Below are positions 5,803-33,469 of a DNA stretch of 33,538 bases, piece after piece. Numbering within the stretch: position 1 is the first letter of the stretch; every line of letters starts with the position of its first letter. The stretch is from Salinarchaeum sp. (GTDB lineage: Archaea > Halobacteriota > Halobacteria > Halobacteriales > SKNY01), in NCBI GenBank assembly GCA_007123105.1, contig SKNY01000110.1, positions 1 through 33,538 of the forward strand. The letters run 5' to 3'. The position numbers were made by a program, and so were the translations under genes. A model generated the notes under the pieces. That model did no database searches and was not told the origin of the DNA. It saw only the letters and a program-made list of their open reading frames with translations.

Positions 5803-7782
5803 ATGACTCGGCATGAGAGTGGTTCGAATCGTCTGACGCGACGTCAGCAGATCGGCGGGACCGGCGCGGTGTTGCTCGGGTTCTCCGCCGGCTGTCTCGG
5901 GGGCGACGAAGACCCCGACGACATCGACAACGCCGACCTTGCAGATGACGCAGACGACGTCGACGGTCCTTCCGACGATGCCGACGTGACCGAGGACTAC
6001 GAACTCCACGACGTCAAGGCCCACTGGATGTATCACGGCGACCTGCCGCTCGACGCCCAGCACAACTTCTACGCCGAGGGCGGCGGCATTTCGGATAACG
6101 CCTGGTCGCTGACGCGGAACTACGAGATGGTCGTCCAGTCCGTGTATGACATGGAAATCCACGGGCTGCAGGTCGAGGATTGGACTTACGAACCCGGCGT
6201 GCTCGAGTTCACCTTCCACGACGATTTCTACTGGTGGAGCGGCGATCGTGTCGAGGCCGACGACTACCTCATGCAACTCGAGTTCGAGGACTTCTACTGG
6301 GGCGGGGACGATTTCGACCTTCACGAATCGATCGTGTCAGCCGAGCGGGTAGACGACCTCACCGTTCGACTCGCCCTGGGCGACTCCTGGCACGAGGCCT
6401 GGGCGTTCGAGGAGACGATTCTCGACACCAATCTCGGTCACAGCCGGACTTACTATGAACCGTGGCTCGAAGAATTTGAGGACGCACCGGATCTCGATGC
6501 GGTCGAAGACATCCGAGCTGACATCGAGAACGATCAGATCACCGATGACGAGATGCTCGTGCATACGAACAATTCGTTGTACGAATTCCGCTACGACGGG
6601 TCGATCGGTGGCGTCGAGGAGGAACACTACGATCTCGAGTTAGTCCCCGAGAAAAATGGAAACGTCCGTCATTTCGCAAACCCCGACAATCACGACCACT
6701 TGCCGGACGTTAAATATCACCGACTCGAGTTGCGTGCCCACCGCGATGAACGCCACGGTCCCGAACAGGAACTATTCCGTCAACAGGAGATTCCGGTCGC
6801 AGAGGGAATTGAATTCCCGGACGTCGTCGTCGAGGCCCAAGAGGGCGAGCTTCCCTTCGAGACCGAAATCCTGCAATATCGCGCGCGAACCGACGACGAG
6901 GGTGGGATTAGTTTTAATCACCTCACACCTCCGAGCGATGACCCGCGCTTTCGGCGCGCCATCGCCTACCTGACGGACAACACGACGTGGGAGATGAACC
7001 CCGAGTCGTTCCCCGTCGAGTATTACCATCCGTATCTCTCCGACGAGGAACTTTACGATTGGACGAGCGAGGAAGTGATCGACGCGTTCACCGACTACCA
7101 CTACGATGAAGTCGCCGTCGACGAGGCAGAAGCCGAACTCGAGGCAGGCGGTTACGAGCGCGACGCCGACGGCAACTGGTTGTTCAAGGAGGACGGAGAA
7201 GAAGGCGAGGCCGGCGAGCCCATGGATTTCGACGTGTACACCCACGAATGGATGAGATACGTCCCGGATCTCGGGAGCGACTGGATCGCAGACCTCGAGG
7301 ATTTCGGTATCAGCACGACCTGGTTCGCCGAGTGGCACGACGATGGCGACTGGACGTTCTTCTACGGCTACACCGGAGGCGTCCGCCCCGACTACGCCTT
7401 CAACGCGATCTTCCGGGAAGAGCTGGGCTGGGAATGGTCTCGTCGGGTGTACGAAGTCCCGAGTACGATTCTCGCACCGCCATTCCTCGAGACCGCAGAA
7501 GCTGGGGCGTCGATGGACGACTGGGAGGTGTACGATGTCGGTGCAATGACCGATCGATTGCCGGTCACGACCGACGAGGACACCCACCAGGATCTCAGCG
7601 ACCAGCTTGCGTGGGTCGTCAACCAGACGGTTAATCACTTCAGCACGGCGACGCCGATCCGTCATCAAGTCACCAACGCCGAGCGGTGGCACTGGCCGGC
7701 GATCGAGGACGCCCCCGAACGGTGGCGCGACGAAGTGACGCGGGTTGGCGCTCGCGTGTTGCAGTACGCTGGCGAAGACTAA
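5803..7782 (+). CDS. Family-5-like solute-binding lipoprotein, copy 1 (SBP1)
   Basis: 659 residues. The leader LTRRQQIGGTGAVLLGFSAGC carries twin arginines and a lipobox (Cys31), followed by a tether of about 35 residues rich in Asp. The mature part resembles extracellular solute-binding proteins of ABC transporter family 5 (oligopeptide/sugar type): HDDFYWWSGDRVEADDYL matches the family's W-x-G-x-PVTA-D-D region, RFRRAIAYLTDNTTW its RxA-x-AYAID region, and EAELEAGGYERDADGNWLF its substrate-lobe helix. It should bind a solute outside the cell while anchored to the membrane. No permease or ATPase gene lies within the window. It is divergent from the aldo/keto reductase and 136 nt before the same-strand SBP2, with which it shares long identical stretches such as APPFLETAEAGASMDDWE, so the two are a recent tandem duplication. 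The ligand is unknown. Confidence 0.85.
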   Translation: MTRHESGSNRLTRRQQIGGTGAVLLGFSAGCLGGDEDPDDIDNADLADDADDVDGPSDDADVTEDYELHDVKAHWMYHGDLPLDAQHNFYAEGGGISDNAWSLTRNYEMVVQSVYDMEIHGLQVEDWTYEPGVLEFTFHDDFYWWSGDRVEADDYLMQLEFEDFYWGGDDFDLHESIVSAERVDDLTVRLALGDSWHEAWAFEETILDTNLGHSRTYYEPWLEEFEDAPDLDAVEDIRADIENDQITDDEMLVHTNNSLYEFRYDGSIGGVEEEHYDLELVPEKNGNVRHFANPDNHDHLPDVKYHRLELRAHRDERHGPEQELFRQQEIPVAEGIEFPDVVVEAQEGELPFETEILQYRARTDDEGGISFNHLTPPSDDPRFRRAIAYLTDNTTWEMNPESFPVEYYHPYLSDEELYDWTSEEVIDAFTDYHYDEVAVDEAEAELEAGGYERDADGNWLFKEDGEEGEAGEPMDFDVYTHEWMRYVPDLGSDWIADLEDFGISTTWFAEWHDDGDWTFFYGYTGGVRPDYAFNAIFREELGWEWSRRVYEVPSTILAPPFLETAEAGASMDDWEVYDVGAMTDRLPVTTDEDTHQDLSDQLAWVVNQTVNHFSTATPIRHQVTNAERWHWPAIEDAPERWRDEVTRVGARVLQYAGED

Positions 7783-7887
7783 TTGGGTCGCTCGCGGTTG
7801 CGGGACGATATTGAGGGTTTCTCTCTCACGGTCCTTTTGAGTTATATGAACCATTAACTATAATAATCATAACAGAAATATTGGGGA

Positions 7888-7894
7888 TTTAAAT
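7888..7894 (+). promoter_or_regulatory. TATA box of SBP2
   Basis: TTTAAAT in an AT-rich stretch ends 24 nt before the SBP2 ATG. This spacing predicts transcription starting at or within a base or two of the ATG. SBP2 therefore has its own promoter and is not only read through from SBP1. Confidence 0.6.
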
Positions 7895-7918
7895 GATGGT
7901 AGTGAGTTATCTCATCAC

Positions 7919-7935
7919 ATGGTTCGTCGAACCAT
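7919..7935. promoter_or_regulatory. Palindrome overlapping the SBP2 start codon
   Basis: The arms ATGGTTCG and CGAACCAT flank a single T, so the first six codons of SBP2 form a perfect 8-bp inverted repeat. If the transcript is leaderless, this would be a hairpin at the very 5' end of the mRNA or an operator over the start site. Confidence 0.5.
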
Positions 7936-9940
7936 AGATTGCACCCGATTGACCCGCCGGCAGCAACTCGTTGCCTCGAGCGCAGTCCTTGGCGGCACGC
8001 TCGCTGGCTGCCTCGGAGATGATGAAGAACTCGCCGATGACGTGGACGATGGCGACGATATGGTGGACGACGAAGACGATACGGTGGTGGAGGATGACGA
8101 CGATCCGATCGAAGATGATGGCGACGACGATGACGTACCGGCTGACGATACCGCAGTCGTCGAACTCCAAGATGTGACTGCCCACTGGATCTACCACGGT
8201 GACCTGCCGCCGGACATCCAGCACAACAACTACGCGGAAGGCGGCGGCATCTCGGACAATGCGTGGGGGATGTCGAGTAATTACCAACTCGTCGTCCGTT
8301 CTGTCTACGACAACGAGATTTACGGCATGTTGATCGATGATTGGTCTTATTCGCCTGGCGTGCTGGAATTTTCCCTCCACGACGATTTCTACTGGTGGAG
8401 CGGGGACCAGGTGACCGTCGACGATTACCTGATGCAGCTCGACTTCCAGGATTATCTCTGGGGCGGGGATGATTTAGACGCCTTTGCGGAAGTGGTTTCT
8501 CGGGACCGCGTCGATGATAACACGCTTCGGTTCGCGCTCGGTGATTCCTGGCACGAGGATTGGGCCTTCGAGGAGACGATCCTCGAGACCCAGATCGCGC
8601 ATAGTCGGGTATTTTACGAACCGTGGCTCGAACAATTCGAGGACGCCCCGGATCTCGATGCCGTCGAAGATATTCGAGACGACGTCAACGATGATCAGAT
8701 TACGGATGACGAGCGGTTGGTCCACACGAATAATACGCTCTTTGAATTCCGCTATGACGGCTCGATCGGCGAGGTGACCGAGGAATCGTTCACCTTCGAA
8801 CTGGTCCCGGAGAAGAACGGGAACGTCAGACATTTCGCCAATCCCGACAACCATGACGTGCTCCCGAATGTCAAATATCACCACCTCGAAATCCGGGCTT
8901 ACCGGGACGAGACCCGGATCCCAGCCGAGGAACTCTTTGACACGCAAGAAAAGCCCATGCTCGAGGGTGAGGGCCATCCGGATTACATCGTCCGTGCGAT
9001 CGATCGCGATCTCGATTTCGAGGCGGACGTCTTTGCCTTTCGCCGTGGGCCAAACGATATGGGGGGCATGCAATTCAATCACCGGTCCCATCCCGGTGAC
9101 AATCCACATTTCCGCCGAGCGATGGCCTATCTTACGGACAACACGACATGGGATCCCCATCCAGAAGCCCAGAGTGTCGAATATTTCCATCCGTATCTCT
9201 CCGATGAAGAACTATTCCAGTGGCACAGCGACGATGTCATTGACGCGCTCACCGACTACGGGTATGACGAGATGCGATTCGATGACGCCGAAACCGAACT
9301 GGTTACCGGTGGCTTCGAACAGGACGCGGACGGCAACTGGTTGTTTGCCGAAGACGGCGAAGAAGGTATGGCAGGCGAACCGATGGACTTCGACGTCCAC
9401 TCACCGGAGTGGATGGTGTACGTCGCCGATCACGGGAGCGACTGGATTGCAGATCTCGATGACTTCGGGATCAGCACCACGTGGTTTGCAGAAGATTTCT
9501 CCGTCGAGGATGACTGGACGTTCATGTACTCCTATACCGGGGGTACCACGCCGGATCACGCGTTCAATTTCATCTTTAACGACGAGGTGGCGACTTGGTC
9601 CCGGCGATACTACAACATCCCCTCGACGGTACTCGCACCGCCATTCCTCGAGACCGCGGAAGCTGGAGCGTCGATGGACGACTGGGAGGAGTACGACACA
9701 GCAGCGATGGCTGACCGGCTACCGGTGACGACCGATGAAGAAATTCACCGCCAGTTGAGTGACGAGTTATTATGGGTGACGAACCAGCTATGTCCGCACT
9801 ACAGTACGGCACCGGCGTTACGCCAGGAGGTCGCAAACGTCGACCGCTGGCACTGGCCGTCGATGGAAGATACGCCGGTTCGGTGGTGGAACACCGGAAA
9901 ACGCGCCGGCGCCCGCGTCCTGCAGTACCACGGCGACTGA
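7919..9940 (+). CDS. Family-5-like solute-binding lipoprotein, copy 2 (SBP2)
   Basis: 673 residues. The leader LTRRQQLVASSAVLGGTLAGC has twin arginines and a lipobox (Cys31), then an Asp-rich tether of about 45 residues. The mature protein follows SBP1 closely end to end: DDFYWWSGDQVTVDDYLMQL, EDAPDLDAVEDI, ELVPEKNGNVRHFANPDNHD, HFRRAMAYLTDNTTW and TAEAGASMDDWEEYD. Differences cluster in the tether and in a few loops, for example near FAEDFSVEDDWTFMYSYTGG, where ligand contacts might lie. It probably shares the transport machinery of SBP1, which is not encoded here. Its own TATA box and a start-codon palindrome suggest independent control. It converges with the aminotransferase gene, one nucleotide apart. 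The start is fixed by the TATA spacing and the leader. Confidence 0.85.
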   Translation: MVRRTIDCTRLTRRQQLVASSAVLGGTLAGCLGDDEELADDVDDGDDMVDDEDDTVVEDDDDPIEDDGDDDDVPADDTAVVELQDVTAHWIYHGDLPPDIQHNNYAEGGGISDNAWGMSSNYQLVVRSVYDNEIYGMLIDDWSYSPGVLEFSLHDDFYWWSGDQVTVDDYLMQLDFQDYLWGGDDLDAFAEVVSRDRVDDNTLRFALGDSWHEDWAFEETILETQIAHSRVFYEPWLEQFEDAPDLDAVEDIRDDVNDDQITDDERLVHTNNTLFEFRYDGSIGEVTEESFTFELVPEKNGNVRHFANPDNHDVLPNVKYHHLEIRAYRDETRIPAEELFDTQEKPMLEGEGHPDYIVRAIDRDLDFEADVFAFRRGPNDMGGMQFNHRSHPGDNPHFRRAMAYLTDNTTWDPHPEAQSVEYFHPYLSDEELFQWHSDDVIDALTDYGYDEMRFDDAETELVTGGFEQDADGNWLFAEDGEEGMAGEPMDFDVHSPEWMVYVADHGSDWIADLDDFGISTTWFAEDFSVEDDWTFMYSYTGGTTPDHAFNFIFNDEVATWSRRYYNIPSTVLAPPFLETAEAGASMDDWEEYDTAAMADRLPVTTDEEIHRQLSDELLWVTNQLCPHYSTAPALRQEVANVDRWHWPSMEDTPVRWWNTGKRAGARVLQYHGD

Positions 9941-17181: not shown

Positions 17182-17940
17182 CTAGTCCGTCTCCGTCAGA
17201 AACGGCCGAATCCCCTCGCGAGTGAAGCTGAGATCGGCACCGAGCAGGAACCACCGGAACCCGCGTTCGATCCGTTGGTCCATGCGCTCGGGCGTTCTGC
17301 CGCCGATGCCCGGACACACGCCGTGGGCGTTGGCTGCGGTCCGCACCGTTTCGACGGCCGTGACGACGGACTCGTGGTCCTTCTCCCCCGGGTGACCCAT
17401 CGCGGCCGAGAGGTCGTTCTCGCCAATGAACGCGACGTCGATGCCCTCAACGGCCAGGATCTCCTCGACCCGGTCGACGGCCGTCGGCGTCTCGATCTGG
17501 ACGACGACAATCGTCTCGTCGTTGGCAGCGCGAACGTATTCGTCGAAGCGTTCCCCGTAATCATTCGCCCGAACGGTGCCGGCAACGCCGCGGGTTCCTG
17601 CTGGCGGGAACCGCGCTGCTGCCACCGCCCGTTCGGCGTCGGACGCCGACTCCACACCAGGGACGATGATCCCGCGCGCCCCGACATCGAGCGCTTGTTT
17701 TGCCGCCCCCGCGCACGCGGCGTCGACCGACGGCAACCGGACGAGCGGCGTCGCAGCCGGTTCGATCGCCCGGACGATGGCCTCGATCCGCTCCGGAGCG
17801 GCCGGGGCGTGTTCGGTATCGACGGCCAGCCAGTCGATGGGGGTCCTCGCGAGTACTTCGGCGACGCGTGGACTTCCGGATAAGATCCAGGCGCCGGCAA
17901 CGACATCACCGCGATCCACTGCTTGTTTCGTCGGTTCCAT
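17182..17940 (-). CDS. HpcH/HpaI-family class II aldolase
   Basis: 252 residues. This family cleaves 2-keto-3-deoxy or 4-hydroxy-2-oxo acids to pyruvate and an aldehyde using a divalent metal. Conserved elements are AVDTEHAPAAPERI (Asp41, Glu43 and His44), PLVRLPSVD (Arg68, pyruvate binding), GARGIIVPGVESASDAE, VVVQIETPTAVDRVEEI with the metal-binding Glu, and VAFIGENDLSAAMGHPG with the metal-binding Asp. FIGEND replaces the more usual FIGPND. Members act on 2-keto-3-deoxy-L-rhamnonate, 2-keto-3-deoxyglucarate or hydroxyphenylacetate-pathway intermediates; a sugar-acid role would suit this region but is inference. It is divergent from SBP3 across a 276-nt spacer with an inverted repeat. Confidence 0.88.
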   Translation of the reverse strand: MEPTKQAVDRGDVVAGAWILSGSPRVAEVLARTPIDWLAVDTEHAPAAPERIEAIVRAIEPAATPLVRLPSVDAACAGAAKQALDVGARGIIVPGVESASDAERAVAAARFPPAGTRGVAGTVRANDYGERFDEYVRAANDETIVVVQIETPTAVDRVEEILAVEGIDVAFIGENDLSAAMGHPGEKDHESVVTAVETVRTAANAHGVCPGIGGRTPERMDQRIERGFRWFLLGADLSFTREGIRPFLTETD

Positions 17941-18216: not shown

Positions 18217-20214
18217 ATGAATGCGGTTGTGCCTGGTAAAACCAACCACCTGCGAGCAGACACGAAGACACGCCTCCCCTTCCGCCGTCGGCGCTACGTT
18301 GCCGCCATGGGGCTGGTCGGTACGGGCGTCGTTGCCGGCTGTCTTGGTGACGATGAGGTAGACCCCGACGCGACGGACACGGACGACGTCGACGCCGATG
18401 ATACGGACGACGTATTGCCGGCCGATGACGACGACGCCGATGATGCCGACGACCAAGCCGAAACCGATGACACCGATGATGCACCTGAGCCCATCGAGCG
18501 CCACGATGTCACCGCGTACTGGGAACGGGGCCCGCCCGTACCGGCAGATGTCCAGTACGCTCGGTATGGCGGGAATACCCCGGCCTGGTACGACAACCGC
18601 CACCAGTATCGAATGGCTGGGCGATCGTTTCGAGATTTCGAAGTCTACGGTGAACTCATCGAATCGATCGATTACCAACCTGGCATCCTTGAAGTAACGT
18701 TCCGCGACGACATCTTTTGGTGGAGCGGGAAAGTCGTTGACGCCACGGACTTCCAGGTCGATAAAGACCTTGCCGATTGGCATTCCGGTGGCGAAGATCT
18801 CGACAATACGCCGAACATCGTTGCCCGTGAACAACTCGACGATCGTACCGTCCGACTCGCCCTCGCGGATACGTGGCGGGAGGACTGGGCGCTCCAGCAA
18901 ACGCTCATCGAAGGCGGCGCAAACGACGTCCTCGCAAGTTCCGAATGGACACAGCCGTGGCTCGAACAGTACGAGGACACGGGAGCTGACATGGATGCAG
19001 TCGGCGACTTGCGCGAAGAACTTTCAGAGGTTCAAGTCGTCGACGACGAGGATCTCGTCCACCAACTGCACATCCCCTGGGAGTTCCGTATCGACGGTTC
19101 GATCGGTAACGTAGGCGAGAATTACTGGCAGTTCGAACTCGTCCCCGAAAAGAACGGGGTGAAGCGGCGATGGGTCGAAGACATTAATTACACTGGCTGG
19201 CGGATTACGGCCGTCGAGGAATCCGGCATTCGCGGGGACGAGCGATTCCTGCAAGGCGATATGCCATGGCGTGGTGTCTCCATTCTCGACCTGGAGGAGG
19301 ACATTCCGTTTCCCATCCGTGAACTCGGATTCGTGCGCGAGTTCGATCAGTGGGGGTGGACGATGAACGCCGAGGCGCATCCAACGGACAATCCATATTT
19401 CCGCCGCGCCTGGAACTTCGCCTGTCCGCGCGGTGACTTCGAGGCACCAGGGCGGGTCCCCCAGGACTTCTCGGGCCACCCGTACCTCACCGCAGCACGG
19501 GTCCGACAGTGGACGAGCGAAGCGGTCTTCGAGGCGCTTACTGATTATGGATTCGACGCCGAATGGGATCGCGCCGAAGCCGATCTGGAACGCGGCGGGT
19601 TCGAACGGAACGGTGACGGGGCGTGGCTCAGACAGGATGACGGTGAGCCGATTGACATCACCATTGGGACCTTCAACTGGATGGGATACGTTGCCGATCT
19701 TGGATCGGATTGGTACGCTGATTTCGAGGATTTCGGCATTTCGACCGAGGTCGTTACGGACACCTATGCGGACGACCCATGGACGGTCGAGGCCCAGTAC
19801 ATTGGCGGGTTGCTGCCGGAGTTTCTCTACAGCAGCGTGTTTGGTGAAGAAGGGCTCACGTGGGCAGCACCGAATCCGAACCTTCCCGAATCCGTCGAAG
19901 CACCGCCACTCGGCGAGACGGATGCACCCCAGGATGACTGGGTCGTCTACGATACCCGGGCGATGACGGACCGACTCGGGGTCACGGTCGACGATGACGC
20001 CTATCAGGACATGGTCGATCAGCTCACCTGGGTCGCCAATCAAGTGTGCCCTCGGACGCTCATGACCTCTCAAACCCAGATTCGGATCGTCAACGACGAA
20101 CGGTGGCACGTACCACTCGTCGAGGAGGCACCGCCCGAAAAATATCTCTGGCTGATGGAAGACCGGATGTGGCACAACGGACTCCTTTCCTACGTGCCCG
20201 AAGAAGACCGGTAA
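18217..20214 (+). CDS. Family-5-like solute-binding lipoprotein, copy 3 (SBP3)
   Basis: 665 residues. The leader is longer than in the other copies: FRRRRYVAAMGLVGTGVVAGC with Cys42, again Tat plus lipobox, then an Asp-rich tether of about 50 residues. It is the most divergent intact copy. It keeps RDDIFWWSGKVVDATDFQ, ELVPEKNGVKRRW, DNPYFRRAWNFA, EADLERGGFERNGDGAWL and DLGSDWYADFEDFGIST. It loses the AYLTDNTTW continuation and has a different C-terminus (TLMTSQTQIRIVNDERWHVP). These changes suggest a different ligand. It is divergent from the HpcH/HpaI aldolase and has no adjacent transporter genes. A start further downstream cannot be excluded, but this ATG keeps the full arginine-rich leader. 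Confidence 0.84.
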   Translation: MNAVVPGKTNHLRADTKTRLPFRRRRYVAAMGLVGTGVVAGCLGDDEVDPDATDTDDVDADDTDDVLPADDDDADDADDQAETDDTDDAPEPIERHDVTAYWERGPPVPADVQYARYGGNTPAWYDNRHQYRMAGRSFRDFEVYGELIESIDYQPGILEVTFRDDIFWWSGKVVDATDFQVDKDLADWHSGGEDLDNTPNIVAREQLDDRTVRLALADTWREDWALQQTLIEGGANDVLASSEWTQPWLEQYEDTGADMDAVGDLREELSEVQVVDDEDLVHQLHIPWEFRIDGSIGNVGENYWQFELVPEKNGVKRRWVEDINYTGWRITAVEESGIRGDERFLQGDMPWRGVSILDLEEDIPFPIRELGFVREFDQWGWTMNAEAHPTDNPYFRRAWNFACPRGDFEAPGRVPQDFSGHPYLTAARVRQWTSEAVFEALTDYGFDAEWDRAEADLERGGFERNGDGAWLRQDDGEPIDITIGTFNWMGYVADLGSDWYADFEDFGISTEVVTDTYADDPWTVEAQYIGGLLPEFLYSSVFGEEGLTWAAPNPNLPESVEAPPLGETDAPQDDWVVYDTRAMTDRLGVTVDDDAYQDMVDQLTWVANQVCPRTLMTSQTQIRIVNDERWHVPLVEEAPPEKYLWLMEDRMWHNGLLSYVPEEDR

Positions 20215-22027: not shown

Positions 22028-23257
22028 TCACTCCCAGTGGCCGTCAAACGTCGCCGTCAGCCCGCAGGCTTGCGCGAACGCCACGATCGTCTGTCGCCGT
22101 TCGTGTTTGTGCAGACCGCCCTCCAGATACCACCCGTTCGGCAGTTCCCGGGGCTGGCGCATCTCGCTACCGTCCGGGTGGGACGGCGTCTCGGCGATCG
22201 TAATGTTGGTCCCGTCGACCCGATACGGGAGCGAGATCGCGTCGAACAGGTCGTACTCTGCCGCCAGGTACTCGATGAGGTCCAGCAGCAGGTCGCCGTG
22301 CTTGACCGACGTGAACGTCCGGGACGGATCGGTGTCGAGGCGGACGACGTACGGATCTTGGCTGGCGTGGACGACATAACTCTCGAGCCATCGCCCGTGG
22401 GTGTGATCCCGAAGATGGACGCTACAGCCCCCGTCGACGTAGGTTTCGAGAATTGCCGACCGGATCACGTCGCCGCGGTGATCCTCGAGCGATGCAATGT
22501 CGACCTGGGGGATCCGGTGATGATCGACGGACGAAATCGTCCGGTATGCATTTCGGCCGGAATCGCTCGGGACGTTGCGTTCGTCCCCGATGTGGGCATG
22601 GCCGTACAGATGGATGCACGTCTCCGGTGGCAGCGGCATGAACCAGTCCTGGAGCGTCGCGGCCCGATTCCCGCCGGCAAAGGCGTTGTGTCCGGCCATG
22701 ATCATCGGGTTCCCGGACCTGCTGACCTCCTCGATCACCGCTCGGTAGTCGCGCGCGGTGTACGGGTATGCGTCCGCATCCCCCCGTATCCGCCCGTGCG
22801 TGGCGGCCCATCCGGCATCCGCGTCGACGTGATCGGAGAGAAATAACACCGTGTGCTCGCCGACTTCATCGACGAAGTAGAACGCGGCGGGATCGTCGGT
22901 GGTTCGCCAGTTCGGGTCATCACGGACGGCCTCGTAAAACGGCATCCGCGGGTCGTCGGCGTATCGCATTGGATCGATGTCGTGGTTGCCCATCACGTAT
23001 CGGCCGGGCAGGTCGAGCCCGTTTAGTAGTTCCAGCTGGACGTCAGTAACTGCCCGATTGCGCTCGATGTTCGTGCCCGAGACGGCGTCGCCCAGGTTCC
23101 AGAGCTGGTCACACGTACGGTGCAATCCGTCGACATCGTCGATTGCGGTTCGTAGACACCGTCTCGCCACATCCGGATCGTCGGTCTGGAGGTCCGACAT
23201 CACCCAGACGCGCGCGGCCACCTCACGATCGGTCGAAATCGGCACGGTCACGGCCAT
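22028..23257 (-). CDS. Calcineurin-like metallophosphoesterase
   Basis: 409 residues, ATG complementary to 23255-23257. Motifs of the binuclear-metal fold appear in order: VMSDLQTD (Asp22), LWNLGDAVSG (Asp56), MGNHDID (Asn90, His91), IMAGHNAF and LYGHAHIG. The first motif is normally D-x-H; here Gln24 stands in for His, so one metal site is altered. There is no signal peptide, so it is cytoplasmic. The last 130 residues (KHGDLLLDLIEYLAAEYDLF) are beyond the catalytic domain and I do not recognise them. A TATA box lies about 30 nt upstream. The gene converges with the PHP gene and is followed upstream by the same-strand FAD oxidoreductase, 66 nt away, but the promoter between them argues for separate transcription. 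Confidence 0.86.
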   Translation of the reverse strand: MAVTVPISTDREVAARVWVMSDLQTDDPDVARRCLRTAIDDVDGLHRTCDQLWNLGDAVSGTNIERNRAVTDVQLELLNGLDLPGRYVMGNHDIDPMRYADDPRMPFYEAVRDDPNWRTTDDPAAFYFVDEVGEHTVLFLSDHVDADAGWAATHGRIRGDADAYPYTARDYRAVIEEVSRSGNPMIMAGHNAFAGGNRAATLQDWFMPLPPETCIHLYGHAHIGDERNVPSDSGRNAYRTISSVDHHRIPQVDIASLEDHRGDVIRSAILETYVDGGCSVHLRDHTHGRWLESYVVHASQDPYVVRLDTDPSRTFTSVKHGDLLLDLIEYLAAEYDLFDAISLPYRVDGTNITIAETPSHPDGSEMRQPRELPNGWYLEGGLHKHERRQTIVAFAQACGLTATFDGHWE

Positions 23258-23285
23258 TGATTCCGTTCCGTTTCGCCATCAGAGG

Positions 23286-23292
23286 TATATAT
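23286..23292 (-). promoter_or_regulatory. TATA box of the metallophosphoesterase gene
   Basis: ATATATA on the minus strand, ending 28 nt before the start codon in an otherwise GC-rich context, which fits a short or absent leader. Confidence 0.55.
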
Positions 23293-23323
23293 CGGTCGGA
23301 TTGGCCACACGAGGTATCGGGTG

Positions 23324-24661
23324 CTAGGAGAGCACTGCACCAGCCTGCCGCAGCCGGTCCTGAACCGACGCGACGTCGACTTCGGGGATCGGCTGGTCAC
23401 ATTCACACGCGATGGCGGCCGTCACGCCGGCTGCTTCCCCGATCGCCATCACCGACGGCGAGACCCGGAACGACGACATCGCGACCGACGTTGCCGAAAT
23501 CGACCGGCCAGCCACGATCAGGTTCGGCGGTCCGCTCGCCGGTACCAACGCTCGCCACGGAATGTCGTAATGATCGTGCTCGCCCAGGCCATCGACGCCG
23601 TAGGAGTGATCGACGTCGACGTCGGCCTGGTGGACGTCGATGTTGAAACAACACTGGGCGATCACGTCATCGAACTGTCGTCGCCCGGCGACGTCGGCCG
23701 CTTCGAGCGTGTACAACCCCTCGATTTGGCGGGACTCGCGCACGCCGATCCCGTCGGGTTCGCAGACCACCTCGACCTCTTCGAACCCGGGCAACCGTTC
23801 TCGGAACCAGCGGATCCCCTCGTGCATCTGGCGCTTTCCCTCTGCGGTGGCCCACTCCAGTTGCTCGGGATCGGTCGGATCGTCGATCTGGACGTGGCCG
23901 AAATTCGTCGTCATGTACGCTTCACGGCCGGGGACGCTTACGGTGGCATAGAGCGTCGGGACGGAAAGGTCGAGTGCACCAGCGGCGACATCTTCGCGAA
24001 CGAGTTCACAGATCTCTTCGACGTAACTGGGAACGCCGTATTCGACATCCACGTTCTCATCGTACTGGATCGCTGTCGGATAGGTCGCGCCGAGGGACGC
24101 TAAATCGACCGGGCCGAACATGTAACAGTACGTGAGCGGCTGAATCTCCCCTCGACCACGGCCGATTTCGGTGGGGACTCCCGCATGGTGGGCGAGGACG
24201 GCATCACCGGTGGCGTCGACGACGGTCCGACCGGCGACCGATTCACCATCCACGACGAGTGCCGCACGCTCGTCCTCGAACGTGCCGTCGGTACAGCGGG
24301 CACCGTAGCGAACGTCGACACCCGCTTGGCGACACATGCGTTCCATCTCGTCTGCGTAGACATCGGGGTCGTACACCTCCTGGCCTACCTTGTCAGCGGT
24401 GTTTGGGCCGCGGGTCGTCCAGATGGCCTTCCGGCCGATCAAGCGGTGGCGCAGTTCGCCAAAGATCCCGTCGATGATGAATCGTTCGCCGTCCCAGTAG
24501 GCGTTACAGAAATTGTTGACGAGCGCCGTCGTTCCGGCACCACCGAGTTGTTCGGTAGCCTCGACGAGGAGGACGTCCCGGCCCTGACGCCCTGCCGCCA
24601 CCGCGGCGCCGAAGCCGGCCGGTCCCCCGCCGACCACGATCACGTCGTAGTTGTCGGCCAT
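23324..24661 (-). CDS. FAD-dependent oxidoreductase
   Basis: 445 residues. The N-terminal Rossmann motif is VIVVGGGPAGFGAAVAAGRQ followed by VLLVEATEQLGG (FAD ribose Glu). Next come TVVDATGDAVLAHHAG and, near the C-terminus, the second FAD contact NLIVAGRSISATSVA and VMAIGEAAGVTAAIA. This is the FAD_oxidored (pfam12831-like) group, which often sits in polysaccharide-utilisation clusters and whose reactions are mostly undefined. There is no signal peptide, so it is cytoplasmic. A 14-bp palindrome lies 55 nt upstream in the spacer shared with the divergent GYD gene. Sequence composition is like its neighbours and no residues appear lost. Confidence 0.87.
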   Translation of the reverse strand: MADNYDVIVVGGGPAGFGAAVAAGRQGRDVLLVEATEQLGGAGTTALVNNFCNAYWDGERFIIDGIFGELRHRLIGRKAIWTTRGPNTADKVGQEVYDPDVYADEMERMCRQAGVDVRYGARCTDGTFEDERAALVVDGESVAGRTVVDATGDAVLAHHAGVPTEIGRGRGEIQPLTYCYMFGPVDLASLGATYPTAIQYDENVDVEYGVPSYVEEICELVREDVAAGALDLSVPTLYATVSVPGREAYMTTNFGHVQIDDPTDPEQLEWATAEGKRQMHEGIRWFRERLPGFEEVEVVCEPDGIGVRESRQIEGLYTLEAADVAGRRQFDDVIAQCCFNIDVHQADVDVDHSYGVDGLGEHDHYDIPWRALVPASGPPNLIVAGRSISATSVAMSSFRVSPSVMAIGEAAGVTAAIACECDQPIPEVDVASVQDRLRQAGAVLS

Positions 24662-25598: not shown

Positions 25599-27596
25599 TC
25601 AGCCGTCGTACATGCAGTTACCGAAGTGGACCGTTCGGAACACCACGTCGCTGTGGGTGGCGGGCACTTCTTCGAGCGGCGGCCAGAACCACTCCTCCTG
25701 GTTGAGGCAGACGATCTGTCCGCCCGGCGAGACACCGTAGTGGTTGACGGCCTGATTGACAACCCAGGTCAGTTCGTCGACCAATTCCTGGTGCATCTCC
25801 TCGTCCGTCGTCACCGTGAGTCGCTCGGTCATGGTCGCCACTTCGTACTCGACCCAGTCGTCCGTTGGATCGCCCGGACCCGCCGTCTCGAGGAACTCCG
25901 GCGCCAGCACCGTGCTCGGGATGTTATACTCCGGCCGGGCCCAGTCTTCGTCAAGATAGACGTTTCCGAGCGCGTGTTCTGGCGTGCCACCGCCGGTGTA
26001 GGTAAACAGGACTGTCCAGTCCTCCGGAAGTTCGAGCAGCGTTTCGAGGCCGATACCGAAGTCATCCATGTCCGCATACCAGTCGGTTCCGTACTCGGGG
26101 ACCCATCCCATCCAGTCGTGGGTGGAGAATTCGAACTCCATCGGCTCGCCGGCATCGCCCTCGACGCCGTCCTCTTGGAGCAGCCAACGACCATCGGCGT
26201 TCCGCTCGTAGCCACCGGCCTCGAGTTCGGCTTCGGCCTCGTCAAAGCGCATCTCGTCCCAGCCATAATCGGTGAACGCATCGATCACCGCGTCGCTGAC
26301 GTACATCTCGAGTTCGTCATCGGAGAAGTACGGGTGGTTGGACTCGATTGGGATGTTCTCGATATAGCCCTCCCAGGCGGTGTTGTCGACAAGATAGGCG
26401 AACGCTCGCCGGAAATGGACGTCATCGGAGGGATGGACGTCGTGGTTGAACTGGATGCCGCCGATCGTATTCGGCGGGCGAAAGTATTCGATCTGTTCGA
26501 TCTCGAAGTCGAACTCGCCGGCAACCGCCTGTTCGAGCGTTTCTGGCGCCTCCGGGCCGACGAACGGCTGTACCTGTTCTTGATACCGTTCGGTCGTGAG
26601 CACGTCGTGTTCTTCGTGGACCTCGTAGCGGGCATACCGAAAATTCGGCAGATGCTCGCGATTGTCGTAGTTGGCGTGATGGCGGAGATTACCGTTCTTC
26701 TCCTGGACGAGTTCGAACTGCCAATAGTCTTCGCCGACTTCCCCCACAGCACCGTCCAACCGGAATTCGTAGATCGAATAGAAGAGTTCGGCCAGTTCCT
26801 CGTCAGATTCGATGAACTGCTCTTCGTGTTCCTCCCGTAGGTCCTCGATCGCATCAAGATCTGGTGCGTCCCCGAACTCCTCAATCCAGCCGTCACTGAC
26901 GTTTCGGCTCATGTTGATGAGGAAATTCTCGACGGTCTGGTAGATCGCCCAATCCTCGTGCCAGGCGTCCACCACGGCCAATCTGGCCGTCAGGTCGTCG
27001 ATGCGCTCCATGGAAACGATGTCGACGTGGTAATCGAGATCGTCATCGCCCCACAGGTAGTCTTCATACTCCAGTTGGTTGAGGAAGTCATCGACGGTGA
27101 CCTGCTCGCCGCTCCACCAGTAGAAGTCGTCGTGAAACGTGAGCTGGAGTACGCCTGGTTCGTAGGACCAGTCCTCCACGAGGTGTCCGTAGTGGGAGAA
27201 GTCGTAGTTCGACCGGCCGATGAGGGGGGCGGGTCGCCAGGGAAAGTCCTCTGGTGGGTTTGGATCGGCGTAGGGATTGTACTGGGTGTCGGCCGGAAGT
27301 TCTGCGTAGTGATGGTTCGCAAACGATGCGGTGGCGTCGAGGACCTCCGGCACCTGTTCGTCCGGATCGATGTCATCCGTGTCGTCCCCGTCATCCATGT
27401 CGTCTCCGTCGTCCGGATCGTCGATATCGTCCGCATCGTCCGGATCGTCGATATCGTCCGCGTCGTCCGTGTCGTCGGTATCGTCAGCGTCGTCGGCCTC
27501 ATCGTCCCCGAGACAGCCGGTAAATGCAGCGAATCCACCGAGACTGCCTGCCTGGAGTAGCCGGCGACGGTCGAGCCAAGAGCTATCTCGTACCAT
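25599..27596 (-). CDS. Family-5-like solute-binding lipoprotein, copy 4 (SBP4)
   Basis: 665 residues. The leader LDRRRLLQAGSLGGFAAFTGC has the Tat arginines and a lipobox with Cys28. The tether, about residues 31-80, is almost only Asp with spacer residues and is encoded partly by a 27-bp tandem repeat. The mature part follows SBP1/SBP2: HDDFYWWSGEQVTVDDFLNQ, GDAPDLDAIEDLREE, HFRRAFAYLVDNTAW, EAELEAGGYERNADGRWLLQ and PSTVLAPEFLETAG. The end differs (FRTVHFGNCMYDG in place of ARVLQYAGED), so the ligand may differ. Behind its promoter on the same strand lies a dead relative (27722-28440), closer to SBP4 than to the others, so this was a tandem duplication. No transporter membrane genes are nearby. 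Confidence 0.85.
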   Translation of the reverse strand: MVRDSSWLDRRRLLQAGSLGGFAAFTGCLGDDEADDADDTDDTDDADDIDDPDDADDIDDPDDGDDMDDGDDTDDIDPDEQVPEVLDATASFANHHYAELPADTQYNPYADPNPPEDFPWRPAPLIGRSNYDFSHYGHLVEDWSYEPGVLQLTFHDDFYWWSGEQVTVDDFLNQLEYEDYLWGDDDLDYHVDIVSMERIDDLTARLAVVDAWHEDWAIYQTVENFLINMSRNVSDGWIEEFGDAPDLDAIEDLREEHEEQFIESDEELAELFYSIYEFRLDGAVGEVGEDYWQFELVQEKNGNLRHHANYDNREHLPNFRYARYEVHEEHDVLTTERYQEQVQPFVGPEAPETLEQAVAGEFDFEIEQIEYFRPPNTIGGIQFNHDVHPSDDVHFRRAFAYLVDNTAWEGYIENIPIESNHPYFSDDELEMYVSDAVIDAFTDYGWDEMRFDEAEAELEAGGYERNADGRWLLQEDGVEGDAGEPMEFEFSTHDWMGWVPEYGTDWYADMDDFGIGLETLLELPEDWTVLFTYTGGGTPEHALGNVYLDEDWARPEYNIPSTVLAPEFLETAGPGDPTDDWVEYEVATMTERLTVTTDEEMHQELVDELTWVVNQAVNHYGVSPGGQIVCLNQEEWFWPPLEEVPATHSDVVFRTVHFGNCMYDG
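27409..27461. repeat. 27-bp tandem repeat in the SBP4 acidic tether
   Basis: Positions 27409-27434 and 27436-27461 are identical over 26 nt at a 27-bp period, encoding DDADDIDDP twice. Shorter imperfect Asp-codon repeats continue on both sides. Replication slippage here would change tether length by whole codons, keeping the frame. Confidence 0.75.
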
Positions 27597-27721: not shown

Positions 27722-28440
27722 TCAGGACGTTATAACGGGTTGCTGAAAGCCGACTTCCGGGAGTCCTGCGGCGACCGCTTTTCCATTCAGCCAGAACCAG
27801 GTCTCCTGATTGGTCCCCGTGGCAGTCGGTCCCTGCACGGCGGTGTGGTGATTAGACATGTGGTTGACGACCCAGACGAGCTCATCGACGGGCTGGTGGT
27901 ACCTCTCTTCGTCGACCGTTCCGGTGAGCCGCTCGACGGACGGAAGCAGGCGATGCTGCCGACCTCGACGTCGACCACACCCTGGAGGACCGAGTCCAAC
28001 AACGAGGAAGGTGTGTCGAAGGCGCACGGCTGGACCTGCCCTTCGAATCGTTCGGACGCGGCGATGGTCGCATCCTCGTGGGTCTGATATCGTGCCCGTG
28101 CAACGTTCGGCCATTCTCGAAGGCATCTGAATTCGCGTGATAGCGGAAATATCCGTTTTCCTCCTGGGTGAGTTCACTCTCCCAGTACTCCGCACCAATG
28201 GATTGACCGCCCCGTCGAGCCGGAACTCGTCGGGTTGACGGACACATTGAACAACTCATCGTCGTCGGTTTCGTTGGTATCGTCGGTGTCATTGCTGTCA
28301 TCAACCGCTTCGATATCGTCGGCATTGCCGGCTCGAGGTCATGTTGTACGCCGGCAAGCATCGTCGTGTCGCCGAGTTCGTAGGGAGCCACCGCCGTCGG
28401 TTCGGATTGGTCATTCAATGTTGTATCGTTGAACCCCATC
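27722..28440 (-). pseudogene. Rearranged dead copy of the solute-binding lipoprotein (SBP5)
   Basis: Homology to SBP4 continues in order but in changing frames and with two large internal losses. An acidic tether (NADDIEAVDDSNDTDDTNET, near 28250-28330) jumps to ELFNVSVN and EFRLDGAV, missing about 190 residues. A frameshift leads to YWESELTQEENGYFRYHANS (28125-28187). Next come ARYQTHEDATIAASERFEGQ and VQPCAFDTPSSLL with VVDVEVGSIACFRP. The sequence then jumps to RLTGTVDEERYHQPVDELVW and NQETWFWLNGK (27722-27931), missing about 200 residues. The Tat leader is not recognisable upstream. The C-terminal stop matches that of an SBP gene. It cannot make a working binding protein. Confidence 0.82.
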
Positions 28441-28541
28441 TTGCTGATTGACGTACGAATTATTCACCGGCTGTCTGATCTCAACCCGGGAATGCGGTTT
28501 GGCAATCCGGTCATTTTTCGGTACTGGTGCTGAGGGAACAC

Positions 28542-29912
28542 ATGATGCCGGTCGAGGAATCTGCGGACACCACGGAGTCGATCGCTGTCCGGTCTCCCAC
28601 CGAAACAACCTGCAGCTGGCTATCGGTTGGTGCCGAGACGATGGACCGTGACTACACGGTGTACGGTGAATGGCGCGAGCACCTCGGTCCACTCGGCGTT
28701 ACGAAGGCGCGGCTCCAGGGTGGGTGGGAAAAGACTGAATCCACACCCGGTCTCTATGACTTCCGCTGGCTCGATGAGATCGTCTTCGATATGGATGACC
28801 AGGGCGTGACGCCGTGGATGTGTCTGTGTTATGGCAATACCAATATCGACGGTGGTGGGGGCAGTCGCCTCGGCGCAAGCGCACCATCGACGGATACCGG
28901 CCAGCGCGCGTGGCTTGACTGGGTGCGGCAGGTGGTCGCGCGATACGGTGCCGTCATCGACGAGTGGGAGGTCTGGAACGAGCCAAACAACGTCTGGATG
29001 GACTGGGACGATGCCCACACCGAGGGGAACGCGCCCGAAACCTACGCGGATCTCTATGTCAGCACCGGCCGGGCGATTCGAGCCCTTCAACCCGACGCTA
29101 TACTCATCGCCATGTCATTGGCCGGCACCGATCCTGCGTGGTGTCACGATGCACTCGCGGAGATCGCGGCCCAGGACGCCCTCGATCTCGTCGACGAAAT
29201 CACCTACCACCCGTACAGTTACAACCCAGACGCCGTCTTCGAGGGCGTTGCGGAGCTGCGTGCCGTCGTCGATCGATTCGATCCGTCGATCACGCTTCGA
29301 CAGGGTGAGAACGGCGCGCCGTCGGAGTACGGCGAGCAACGCGCCCTCAGTGAACACGAGTGGACCGAAACCGCCCAGGCGAAGTGGGCGCTTCGGCGGT
29401 TACTTGCCGATCGCGCCCGTGGGATTCCGTCCTCGTACTTTCAGATCATGGATATGCACTATCCGGACGAGGTCAACAGGAAGGGACTGTTGTACTCCGA
29501 GCCGGATCAGTCGGTCGGCCACCGGAAGGAGGCCTTCGATGCGGTGCGTCACCTCGCTGCCGTGTTCGACGACGGCCTCGAACCGCGCGGCCACGCCGCG
29601 GTCCGGACGGAGTCGGATCGGTCACTTGCGGCGTATGGGTTCGAACGCCGTGGGTCGGCCGAGGGGCTCGTCGCATTGTGGTTCGACGACGAGATCCCGG
29701 CCGATGACGTCTCGCGGACGTCGACAGCCGTGACCGTCACCAGCCCGATTATTCGGCATCCGGTATTGTGTGATCTCCGAACGGGCGACGTCTGGTCGCT
29801 ACCGGACGACGCCGTCACGCGGTCCGGTTCCCAACTCGTCGTCAATGACGTCCCGCTGTACGATTCACCGGTGCTTCTTGCCGATGCCGGTACGATTCCG
29901 CTCGCCGAGTAA
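28542..29912 (+). CDS. GH39-like (clan A) glycoside hydrolase, cytoplasmic
   Basis: 456 residues from the ATG at 28542; ATG 28545 and GTG 28527 are alternatives. The (beta/alpha)8 barrel of retaining clan A enzymes is visible: STPGLYDFRWLDEIVFDMDD near the start, the acid/base Glu147 in DEWEVWNEPNN, TYHPYSYNPD, and a probable nucleophile Glu256 in LRQGENGAPSE. The C-terminal part from about residue 350 looks like a beta-sandwich (GLVALWFDDE, SQLVVNDVPLYDSPVLL), as in GH39 and related enzymes. There is no signal peptide, so it would cleave imported oligosaccharides inside the cell. GH39 members act on xylosides, iduronides and others; the substrate is unknown. The BNR_4 gene follows after 38 nt on the same strand, so they are likely co-transcribed. 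Confidence 0.82.
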   Translation: MMPVEESADTTESIAVRSPTETTCSWLSVGAETMDRDYTVYGEWREHLGPLGVTKARLQGGWEKTESTPGLYDFRWLDEIVFDMDDQGVTPWMCLCYGNTNIDGGGGSRLGASAPSTDTGQRAWLDWVRQVVARYGAVIDEWEVWNEPNNVWMDWDDAHTEGNAPETYADLYVSTGRAIRALQPDAILIAMSLAGTDPAWCHDALAEIAAQDALDLVDEITYHPYSYNPDAVFEGVAELRAVVDRFDPSITLRQGENGAPSEYGEQRALSEHEWTETAQAKWALRRLLADRARGIPSSYFQIMDMHYPDEVNRKGLLYSEPDQSVGHRKEAFDAVRHLAAVFDDGLEPRGHAAVRTESDRSLAAYGFERRGSAEGLVALWFDDEIPADDVSRTSTAVTVTSPIIRHPVLCDLRTGDVWSLPDDAVTRSGSQLVVNDVPLYDSPVLLADAGTIPLAE

Positions 29913-29950
29913 CCACAACGGCTAACCGGCACCTATGCACTTCCCCGCCC

Positions 29951-31276
29951 ATGGCGCTCGACCGCAATGACCGCGCTGACGGATACCGGGGGATCTGGTT
30001 TCGGCTCGGCCAGTTCGATGGCGAATACGGCGATAAGTACTCGGGTGGTCTCAGCACGTATACGATGAAACACGTCCCGATGGCGGTCCACGCCGACGGG
30101 ACGACGTTCTTTACCTACGGCGGTACTCGGCCGGACGAACGTGACCTGCTCATTATGGTGGGGGCGTACGACCACGATCAGCATGCCGTTTGTCGACCGA
30201 TCGTCATTGACACCAAACCCGAGCCGAATCCGAGCTACGACAGCGACACCGTTGTCGACCCCCACGACAATGCCACGATCGCAATCGACGGCGACGGCCA
30301 CGTAGTCGTGTTCGTCGCCGGCCGCGGTCGGAGCCGTCCCGGCCGAATCTATCGAAGTGACGATCCACACAGCGTCTCCTCGTTTTCGTTCGTGACCGAA
30401 CGGGAATTTTTTGCATACCCACAACCGTGGTGGGTCGACGACCGGTTCGTCGTCCTGTTCACCATTTACGACGAGAACGGCAATCGCGAGCTGTTCTGGG
30501 ACCGGACGGCGGACGGTCACCCGGGCGATCACCAGCAGTTGGTCGGCATCGGCGGGCACTACCAGATTAGCACCATCCACGATGGGACCGTCTACACCGC
30601 CTGTAACTGGCATCCCGATGGGGACGTCGACCGTCGAACGAACCTGTACGTCCTTGCCACCGACGACGGCGAGACGTGGCGGACGGTGTCGGGGAAGCGG
30701 GTCGATCCGCCGGTAACCGAGGTCGATCACCATAGCCTGGCATGGGATGCCGCCGCCGAGAACCGGCTGGTCTATCTCAACGACATCCGGGTCGACGACG
30801 ACGGCAACCCGGTCGTGCTCTACGTGACGAGCGCGGGACCCGAACCCGGGCCCTCGAACGACCCGCGCTACTGGGAAGTGGCCCGCTGGGCCGGCGACAC
30901 GTGGAACCGCCAGCGCATCACCGACGCCGATCACAACTACGATTCGGGCAGCCTCTATCTAACCGAGGACGGGTGGTACGTGCTCGGACCTACCGAGGTC
31001 GGTCCCCAACCCTACGGGACCGGTGGCGAAGTGGCCTGCTGGCGGAGCACTGACGCCGGTACCACCTGGGATCGCATCCATCGGCTCACCGCCGACAGCG
31101 AGTACAATCACACGTACGTCCGGCGACCGCACAACCATGCCTCGCCGTTCGACGCCGTCTGGGCCGACGGCGATCCGTACGCGGCAAGTCCCTCCCGCTT
31201 GTATATTGGCGCCCTCGACGGGCGAAGCTGGCAACTCCCGACGGAGATGGCAAACGACTGGGTCGCACTCGACTAG
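29951..31276 (+). CDS. BNR_4-type beta-propeller protein, ulvan-lyase-like
   Basis: 441 residues. The N-terminus GYRGIWFRLGQFDGEYGDKY with KHVPMAVHADGTTFFTYGG, then VDPHDNATIAIDGDGHVVVF with VAGRGRSRPGRIYRS, follows the BNR_4 pattern. From memory, that family includes the PL24/PL25 ulvan lyases, seven-bladed propellers with catalytic His residues. His105 in DPHDN and the YPQPWW stretch at about 156-161 are candidates for the active site. The later blades carry Asp-box-like DDGETW and DAGTTW. There is no signal peptide, which is unusual for a lyase acting on a polymer and suggests oligosaccharide substrates or a non-lyase function. It is downstream of the GH39-like gene in the same unit. Its stop codon overlaps that of the convergent aminopeptidase. 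Confidence 0.75.
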   Translation: MALDRNDRADGYRGIWFRLGQFDGEYGDKYSGGLSTYTMKHVPMAVHADGTTFFTYGGTRPDERDLLIMVGAYDHDQHAVCRPIVIDTKPEPNPSYDSDTVVDPHDNATIAIDGDGHVVVFVAGRGRSRPGRIYRSDDPHSVSSFSFVTEREFFAYPQPWWVDDRFVVLFTIYDENGNRELFWDRTADGHPGDHQQLVGIGGHYQISTIHDGTVYTACNWHPDGDVDRRTNLYVLATDDGETWRTVSGKRVDPPVTEVDHHSLAWDAAAENRLVYLNDIRVDDDGNPVVLYVTSAGPEPGPSNDPRYWEVARWAGDTWNRQRITDADHNYDSGSLYLTEDGWYVLGPTEVGPQPYGTGGEVACWRSTDAGTTWDRIHRLTADSEYNHTYVRRPHNHASPFDAVWADGDPYAASPSRLYIGALDGRSWQLPTEMANDWVALD

Positions 31277-32367: not shown

Positions 32368-32446
32368 GTCGAGGACAGTCACGCCCCCATAATACGGTTT
32401 TCTGTGGGTCGCCAAGTCTTTGACCGGGTGGACCCCTGGAGTCGGC

Positions 32447-33469
32447 ATGATCGACCTTCGCAGCGACACCGTGACCAGGCCAACCGACGAGATGCGCAGC
32501 GCAGCCCGCAACGCACCTGTCGGCGACGACGTCTACGGTGAGGATCCGACCGTCAACAAACTCGAGGCCCGGGCTGCCGAGCTACTCGGAACACAAGCCG
32601 CCCTCTACGTCCCGTCGGGTACCATGGGAAACCAGATCGCAGCACTGACCCACACCGAGTACGGCCAAGAGGTCGTCCTCGAGGCCACCAGTCACATCTA
32701 CGGCCACGAGGTCGGCGGCCTTGCCGCCACCGCTGGCCTGCAGGTCCGGCCGCTCGACGGCGGAGCCGACGGCCTCTTTTCTCCGTCCGCGCTCGCCGAT
32801 GCGATCATCGAGCCGTCGTTACACAGAGCGGGTACCGGTTTGGTCTGTCTCGAGAACACCCACAACCGGGCCGGCGGAACGGCGCATTCTCCAGCCGCGA
32901 TGGCCGCTCGGTGCGACATCGCTCACGATGCCGGCATCCCGGTCCACCTCGACGGGGCTCGGCTGTTCAACGCCGCGGTGGCTCTCGACGTGCCCCCGGC
33001 AGCGCTGGCCGAGCCGGTCGATTCGGTGATGTGTTGTGTCTCGAAGGGACTTGGGGCTCCGGTCGGGTCGCTGGTGGCCGGCGACGAGGAATTCGTCGAA
33101 ACGGCTCGCCGCTACCGCAAGCGACTGGGCGGCGGCATGCGCCAGGCGGGCATCATCGCAGCTCCCGGATTGATCGCACTCGACTCCTGGGAACGGCTTG
33201 CCGAGGACCACGAACGGGCCGTCCGGTTGGCAACTGCACTCGACGAGCTACCGGGTGTTACGGTTGACGCCCCGGATACGAATCTCGTCCGCGTCGATGT
33301 GACCGACGCGGTAGTCGACGGGGAGACGTTCCTCTCACAGCTGGCCGATCGCGACGTGCTCGGGGGCGCCTACGGTGGCGACGTCATCAGGCTGTGCACG
33401 CATCGTGACCTCACGGATGCGGACGTCGATGCCGCGATAGCCGTCGCGACCGAGATTCTCACCGATTAA
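32447..33469 (+). CDS. Low-specificity threonine aldolase
   Basis: 340 residues from the ATG at 32447 ([17 protein letters not shown]). This PLP enzyme splits L-threonine or L-allo-threonine into glycine and acetaldehyde in the cytoplasm. Hallmarks are the opening [68 protein letters not shown] with Asp169, and the cofactor lysine Lys200 in [13 protein letters not shown], followed by [15 protein letters not shown]. It is full length. It shares an 79-nt upstream spacer with the divergent aminopeptidase; both deal with amino acids, though a functional link is only suggested. Confidence 0.94.

Follow-up and report, generated by a model that had tools for sequence, protein, structure and literature searches.

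A haloarchaeal two-gene unit of a GH39-like glycosidase and an ulvan-lyase-like propeller, a candidate for intracellular cleavage of acidic oligosaccharides

The window analysed here, a haloarchaeal contig of 33,538 nucleotides (C30, bases 1-33538), contains two adjacent genes for a GH39-like glycosidase and a seven-bladed propeller that resembles ulvan lyases. Our best explanation, held with moderate confidence, is that the pair is an operon derived from bacteria whose products act, within the cytoplasm, on uronate-containing oligosaccharides that have been imported, with the propeller acting as a lyase. This explanation builds on features obtained by computation, namely the two genes, their folds, conserved catalytic residues, the lack of export signals, bacterial kinship and the presence of acid-sugar genes elsewhere in the genome. 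Acidic-polysaccharide lyases are rare in archaea, and the pair points to a different kind of enzyme as well as to intracellular cleavage. The novelty here lies in the pairing of a signal-less lyase candidate from a distinct subfamily with a GH39-like hydrolase. The source genome, from an uncultured archaeon, is a 1.88 Mb metagenome-assembled genome (MAG) of 122 contigs, and its family is represented by two genomes in our collection. The genome's own content was judged by family searches; as the MAG is only 67% complete, linkage was read within contigs.

Both open reading frames proved to be real, and the in-frame ATG codons at about 28542/28545 fit the glycosidase start proposed in the sequence-only reading (Table 1). 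The two genes lie on the same strand 38 bases apart. The gene that follows, for an M29 peptidase, is convergent with them and shares a few bases with the propeller stop codon; hence the unit consists of exactly two genes. We predict that they are co-transcribed as a small operon. A degraded substrate-binding protein (SBP) fragment lies directly upstream of the glycosidase gene on the opposite strand. This decayed paralogue (27722-28439, minus strand) consists of fragments in two frames that resemble the C-terminal part of the SBP encoded at 25599-27596.

Table 1. Features of the window, with positions counted from its first nucleotide.
Feature	Position	Strand	Remarks
HpcH/HpaI-type aldolase	17182..17940	-	Possible candidate downstream enzyme; about 10.6 kb from the unit
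PF12831 FAD oxidoreductase	23324..24661	-	Possible candidate partner; its homologue in Armatimonadota L085 immediately follows a GH39-like gene
SBP_bac_5 lipoprotein	25599..27596	-	Membership in the pathway not supported
GH39-like clan GH-A glycosidase	28527..29912	+	461 aa; GTG start at 28527 or ATG at 28542/28545; Pfam PF01229
E152 codon, predicted acid/base in WNEP motif	28980..28982	+	9/9 homologues; after model strand 146-149
E261 codon, predicted nucleophile in QGEnGAPS	29307..29309	+	9/9 homologues; after model strand 256-259
Intergenic gap, 38 bases	29913..29950	+	From sequence and translation
BNR_4 seven-bladed propeller, uronate-lyase-like	29951..31276	+	441 aa; Pfam PF15892
D103-P104-H105 codons	30257..30265	+	Equivalent to FoRham1 Asp83 and base/acid His85; D and H in 26/26 homologues
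R125 codon	30323..30325	+	Replaces FoRham1 His105 / PLSV_3936 His143
Y156 codon	30416..30418	+	Equivalent to FoRham1 Tyr150 / PL25 Tyr188; 26/26 homologues
R179 codon	30485..30487	+	Equivalent to charge neutraliser Arg166 / Arg204; 24/26 homologues
Y204 codon	30560..30562	+	Equivalent to FoRham1 Tyr202; 26/26 homologues
PLP threonine-type aldolase, GntG-type	32420-33469	+	Threonine-aldolase-like

Hydropathy analysis and inspection of both N-termini revealed no hydrophobic signal, twin-arginine motif or lipobox, and a search of the upstream frames identified no in-frame extension that would supply a signal peptide for either gene. These results bear out the earlier description of the unit as free of secretion signals, and suggest that both proteins probably act in the cytoplasm. 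Among the bacterial relatives inspected, an N-terminal hydrophobic segment was found in 9 of 10 propellers and 6 of 8 glycosidases; signal-less bacterial members are L062 for the propeller, and L085 and L086 for the glycosidase. A cytoplasmic site for the pair is plausible because cytoplasmic GH88, GH78, GH106 and GH154 enzymes have been listed for cultured haloarchaea.

The propeller matched the Pfam family BNR_4 (PF15892) with 46.7 bits (cut-off 27.3). Its AlphaFold2 model (pLDDT 82, pTM 0.88) had the PL25 ulvan lyase 5UAM as its best fold in the PDB (TM 0.74), followed by GH145, PL42 and PL24, and all of the top 21 fold matches were PL25, GH145, PL42, PL24 or related lyase entries. A PDB profile search with a profile built from eight propeller homologues found GH145, PL25 and PL42 structures. 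By profile the closest solved sequences are GH145 proteins (E 2.6e-11), the alignment beginning beyond the posterior-face catalytic His48. The protein thus has the seven-bladed BNR_4/ulvan-lyase-type propeller of PL25, PL24 and PL42.

For the PL42 enzyme FoRham1, an L-rhamnose-alpha-1,4-D-glucuronate lyase, mutation and a neutron structure established that the base/acid His85 is held by Asp83, that Arg166 neutralises the carboxylate with the aid of the positively charged His105 and of Tyr150, and that Tyr202 is essential (PMC8377490, PMC10951650). Equivalents of Asp83, His85, Tyr150, Arg166 and Tyr202 are common to FoRham1, the GH145 protein BT3686, which is also of the BNR_4 family, and the window propeller. 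The latter has the base/acid histidine (H105), the neutralising arginine (R179) and the flanking tyrosines (Y156 and Y204), and the charge-neutralising set D103/H105/Y156/R179/Y204 is under strong constraint; the two exceptions at R179 are distant haloarchaeal sequences (L030 and L031). The His-His-Asp motif described for PL24, PL25 and PL42 (PMC10951650) is not intact. D103 and H105 are kept, whereas the second histidine is replaced by R125, such that the positive charge is retained and the triad becomes His-Arg-Asp. As R125 breaks the His-His-Asp triad, we have filed the propeller in none of these three families. The position lies 20 residues from H105 with no gap between them; of 26 homologues, 16 have Arg and 10 have His there. 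The His variants comprise eight bacterial sequences that group in a single clade (support 100/99 in the tree), plus L030 and L031. The arginine is common to one whole subfamily.

The propeller shares its seven-bladed architecture and equivalents of His123, Tyr188 and Arg204 with the PL25 ulvan lyase PLSV_3936 and PL24 LOR_107. It differs from them in having only about 13% identity, an arginine in place of His143 and no signal peptide, and its expected substrates are cytoplasmic oligosaccharides. From the residues and the fold, the most likely prediction is that it works like the PL24, PL25 and PL42 enzymes. An Arg-for-His exchange within a lyase pocket that is otherwise complete varies a mechanism resolved by neutron crystallography. 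The exchange is the mark of an entire subfamily, bacterial for the most part, in which we found no characterised member (46-51% identity).

The glycosidase matched Glyco_hydro_39 (PF01229) with 28.4 bits (cut-off 26), the alignment covering only profile positions 73-227 of 472, which is not a full-length GH39 match. In a PDB profile search its subfamily profile reached GH39 beta-xylosidases and PslG. The structure prediction, built from window and genome loci only, without the plasmid sequences, gave a model with pLDDT 83 and with PslG and GH39 as the closest folds (TM 0.67). The model has the clan GH-A barrel of GH39, with glutamates after strands 4 and 7 (E152 and E261) as in retaining enzymes. 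The glycosidase thus has the barrel, the NEP acid/base and the Glu nucleophile in common with GH39 beta-xylosidases and the PslG endoglucanase, but is only about 13-20% identical to them, and its match to the Pfam model is limited to the first part. It belongs to a separate subfamily with Spirosoma, Polaromonas and Armatimonadota members; the closest of these, at 29-39% identity, come from plasmids of Spirosoma and Polaromonas and from Armatimonadota.

We infer the following scheme, in which lyase rather than hydrolase chemistry, the substrate, the order of action, co-transcription and the route of import are all predicted. The propeller would be an exo-acting lyase that cleaves the (1->4) bond to a uronic acid by beta-elimination. 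H105, oriented by D103, would abstract the C5 proton and donate a proton to the leaving oxygen, while R179 together with R125 and Y156 would neutralise the carboxylate. Our best guess for the substrate is a linkage of the alpha-L-rhamnosyl-(1->4)-D-glucuronate type, because enzymes of PL24, PL25, PL42 and GH145 act there. The GH39-like enzyme, predicted to be retaining with E152 as acid/base and E261 as nucleophile, would hydrolyse a neighbouring linkage in the same oligosaccharide, and the unsaturated uronate would be handled next by the products of another contig, a GH88-family enzyme and enzymes for keto-deoxy sugar acids.

The genes for these later steps may be those on contig C26 (9000-23000, L090), where a GH88-family gene, two galactarate/altronate-dehydratase-type (GD_AH) genes, an SDR gene and a fucosidase gene lie together. 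The GH88-family enzyme has no evident signal sequence, and the KduD-like score of the SDR is below the cut-off. The C26 acid-sugar genes and a D-threonate-kinase-like gene on contig C51 make uronate catabolism in the source organism plausible. Near this kinase-like gene (C51, L032, 1775-3043 and 6397-7668) is a further signal-less BNR_4 protein, and contig C39 of the same genome encodes another BNR_4 domain within a 786-aa open reading frame. Several findings speak against our best explanation: the His-His-Asp triad is broken, most of the 23 bacterial propeller loci have surroundings that are not specific to polysaccharides, the second genome of the genus has neither gene, no transporter is linked to the pair, and the GH88 and dehydratase genes lie on a contig other than that of the pair, in a MAG of 67% completeness.

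Gene neighbourhoods of relatives were compared for both proteins, and since part of the neighbours was scanned the counts for pairing are minimum values. In at least 2 of 23 bacterial propeller loci, the gene immediately upstream on the same strand is of the GH39 type. The upstream partner is a canonical GH39 in Hydrogenedentota (L013) and a GH39-like enzyme in Planctomycetota (L072). As neither is a close relative of the window glycosidase, the pairing of GH39-type and propeller genes seems to have arisen more than once. The surroundings of the remaining bacterial propeller loci are mostly unremarkable or include sulfatase-like genes, one of them confirmed, and a conserved propeller neighbourhood was looked for in Planctomycetota and not found. 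Relatives of the glycosidase are found in Spirosoma, in a SusCD locus that also encodes RraA, SDRs and two heparinase II/III-type proteins; in Polaromonas, together with RraA and uxaC (uronate isomerase); in a locus whose other products include two heparinase-type proteins and an alginate lyase; next to a rhamnogalacturonase-like protein in another locus; and in L085 just ahead of the PF12831 FAD oxidoreductase gene. The theme common to these loci is acidic polysaccharide. The sequence-only reading had held that unrelated contexts in relatives would count against it; propeller contexts are indeed mostly not conserved, whereas glycosidase contexts are usually polysaccharide-related.

Propeller relatives with 46-50% identity occur in Dyadobacter, KSB1, Planctomycetaceae, Hydrogenedentota and Armatimonadota, the best in the tree set reaching 51%, and 16 of 294 genomes from the planctomycete phylum carry homologues. 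Among 394 genomes of the window's own class only two others contained propeller matches, both weak and partial, and the glycosidase had distant matches only. Both genes are absent from the second genome of the genus. The bacterial relatives, the near-absence in the class and the second genome without either gene point to acquisition of the pair from bacteria. Subsequent halophilic adaptation is suggested by pI values of 4.4 and 4.7, compared to 5.0-9.7 in close bacterial relatives. In the tree the window propeller falls among bacterial sequences; as its branch is long and its sister group not strongly supported, we name no donor. Contamination of the MAG by a bacterial contig was rejected as an explanation: the contig proteome is acidic and halophilic in character, its lipoproteins are of the haloarchaeal type, GC3 is even along the contig, and the GC3 of the pair is similar to that of neighbouring genes. 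Distant BNR_4 proteins occur in other haloarchaea, including one in Halocatena marina between sulfatases and a GH78 rhamnosidase. We found no literature specific to BNR_4 in haloarchaea, and none on BNR-4 with an FAD oxidoreductase.

Conserved residues are no proof of lyase activity, because BT3686 keeps the same anterior pocket and yet is a hydrolase that acts from the other face. The propeller could accordingly be a hydrolase like the GH145 propellers that cleave Rha-GlcA with the posterior face, or an inactive glycan-binding protein, and the pair an intracellular set of glycosidases without beta-elimination. The profile kinship to GH145 with its identical anterior residues, the loss of the second histidine and the example of BACCELL_00856, which is without activity, fit such a protein. 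We nevertheless consider it unlikely, as the best fold match is PL25 and not GH145, the pocket residues are strongly constrained, and R125 retains the positive charge borne by His105 in FoRham1. It is highly improbable that the substrates are not food polysaccharide but uronate-bearing glycans of the cell's own S-layer or exopolysaccharide, which the pair would trim or recycle. Haloarchaeal N-glycans do contain uronic acids, the glycosidase's closest fold is that of PslG, a hydrolase belonging to the Psl exopolysaccharide system, and the pair has no linked import genes; but no glycosyltransferase or assembly gene adjoins it, and relatives lie in degradation-type loci with lyases.

The sequence-only reading had proposed a pathway contained in the local cluster, in which the pair cleaves oligosaccharides captured by the SBPs and the process is completed by three further enzymes of the window, the FAD oxidoreductase, the aldolase and the aldo/keto reductase. 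All of these parts are present in the 33.5 kb, GH39-like and PF12831 genes are adjacent in an Armatimonadota genome, and the listed plasmid homologues of the FAD enzyme are bacterial, as are those of the pair. The arrangement argues otherwise and renders a complete local pathway improbable, since the other genes form separate transcription units on both strands, mixed with housekeeping genes for PPDK, a P-type ATPase, a lipid kinase and peptidases. The named neighbours do exist, although the sugar-acid-type aldolase is the one encoded at 17182-17940, for which the GarL, HpaI and RhmA models score alike and all below cut-off, and whose homologues are common in haloarchaea. The aldolase encoded at 32420 was rejected as a sugar-acid cleaver, being PLP-dependent and of the threonine type; its frame overlaps the M29 peptidase gene, which is divergent to it, in the start region of the latter, and its true start is probably downstream of 32420. 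A role for the SBPs in import found no support: SBP_bac_5 members occur on seven contigs, those of the window are paralogues of this genome-wide set, and no permease or ATPase was found among the window ORFs scanned. Membership of the arylsulfotransferase-like and aldo/keto reductase genes, which lie more than 22 kb from the pair, is likewise unsupported. With only two adjoining CAZyme-like genes, the region lacks the co-located transporter, regulator and several CAZymes of a polysaccharide utilisation locus. What stands of the earlier proposal is the signal-less pair itself, which probably acts on an acidic sugar, as argued for by the pocket, the glutamates and the loci of relatives.

The preferred reading, a cytoplasmic lyase and hydrolase pair, has a counterpart in PL22, the intracellular oligogalacturonate lyase, a cytoplasmic propeller that acts on imported uronate oligosaccharides. 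The window propeller may be likened to it in mode of action by analogy, the propeller families being different. In haloarchaea that grow on hyaluronate, the lyase is a secreted PL8, uptake is by an ABC importer, and GH88/GH154 enzymes act in the cytoplasm (PMC13260240). That glycosaminoglycan locus resembles our proposal in combining a lyase, a cytoplasmic GH88-type step, a keto-deoxy sugar acid route and genes of bacterial origin, but its lyase is secreted and its importer encoded in the same locus, whereas here the lyase candidate is signal-less and no importer is linked. PL42 genes have been noted in Natrarchaeobius and natronoarchaea (PMC12343721). The earlier statement that such a set had not been described in haloarchaea therefore needs to be narrowed. 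A His-Arg-Asp cytoplasmic lyase with a GH39-like hydrolase might constitute an intracellular route for acidic rhamnose/uronate glycans that is undescribed in archaea, as well as a new CAZy-level lyase family spanning Planctomycetota, Hydrogenedentota, Armatimonadota and Bacteroidota; we put this forward only tentatively. In haloarchaea the possession of lyase genes is often not matched by growth on uronate polymers (PMC9726719), which also counts against our best explanation; attempts at enrichment on pectin or alginate were unsuccessful, and hyaluronate was not reported as a growth substrate until 2026 (PMC9726719, PMC13260240).

Several other genes of the window were observed in passing. Three very acidic SBP_bac_5-like lipoproteins with Asp-rich linkers are encoded at 5803-9940 (plus strand) and 25599-27596 (minus strand), with no transporter genes nearby. 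A 665-aa acidic lipoprotein with a twin-arginine-like start and no Pfam match is encoded at 18217-20214 (plus strand). At 22028-24661 (minus strand) the FAD oxidoreductase gene is followed by a 409-aa open reading frame without a Pfam match, which by eye is metallophosphoesterase-like.
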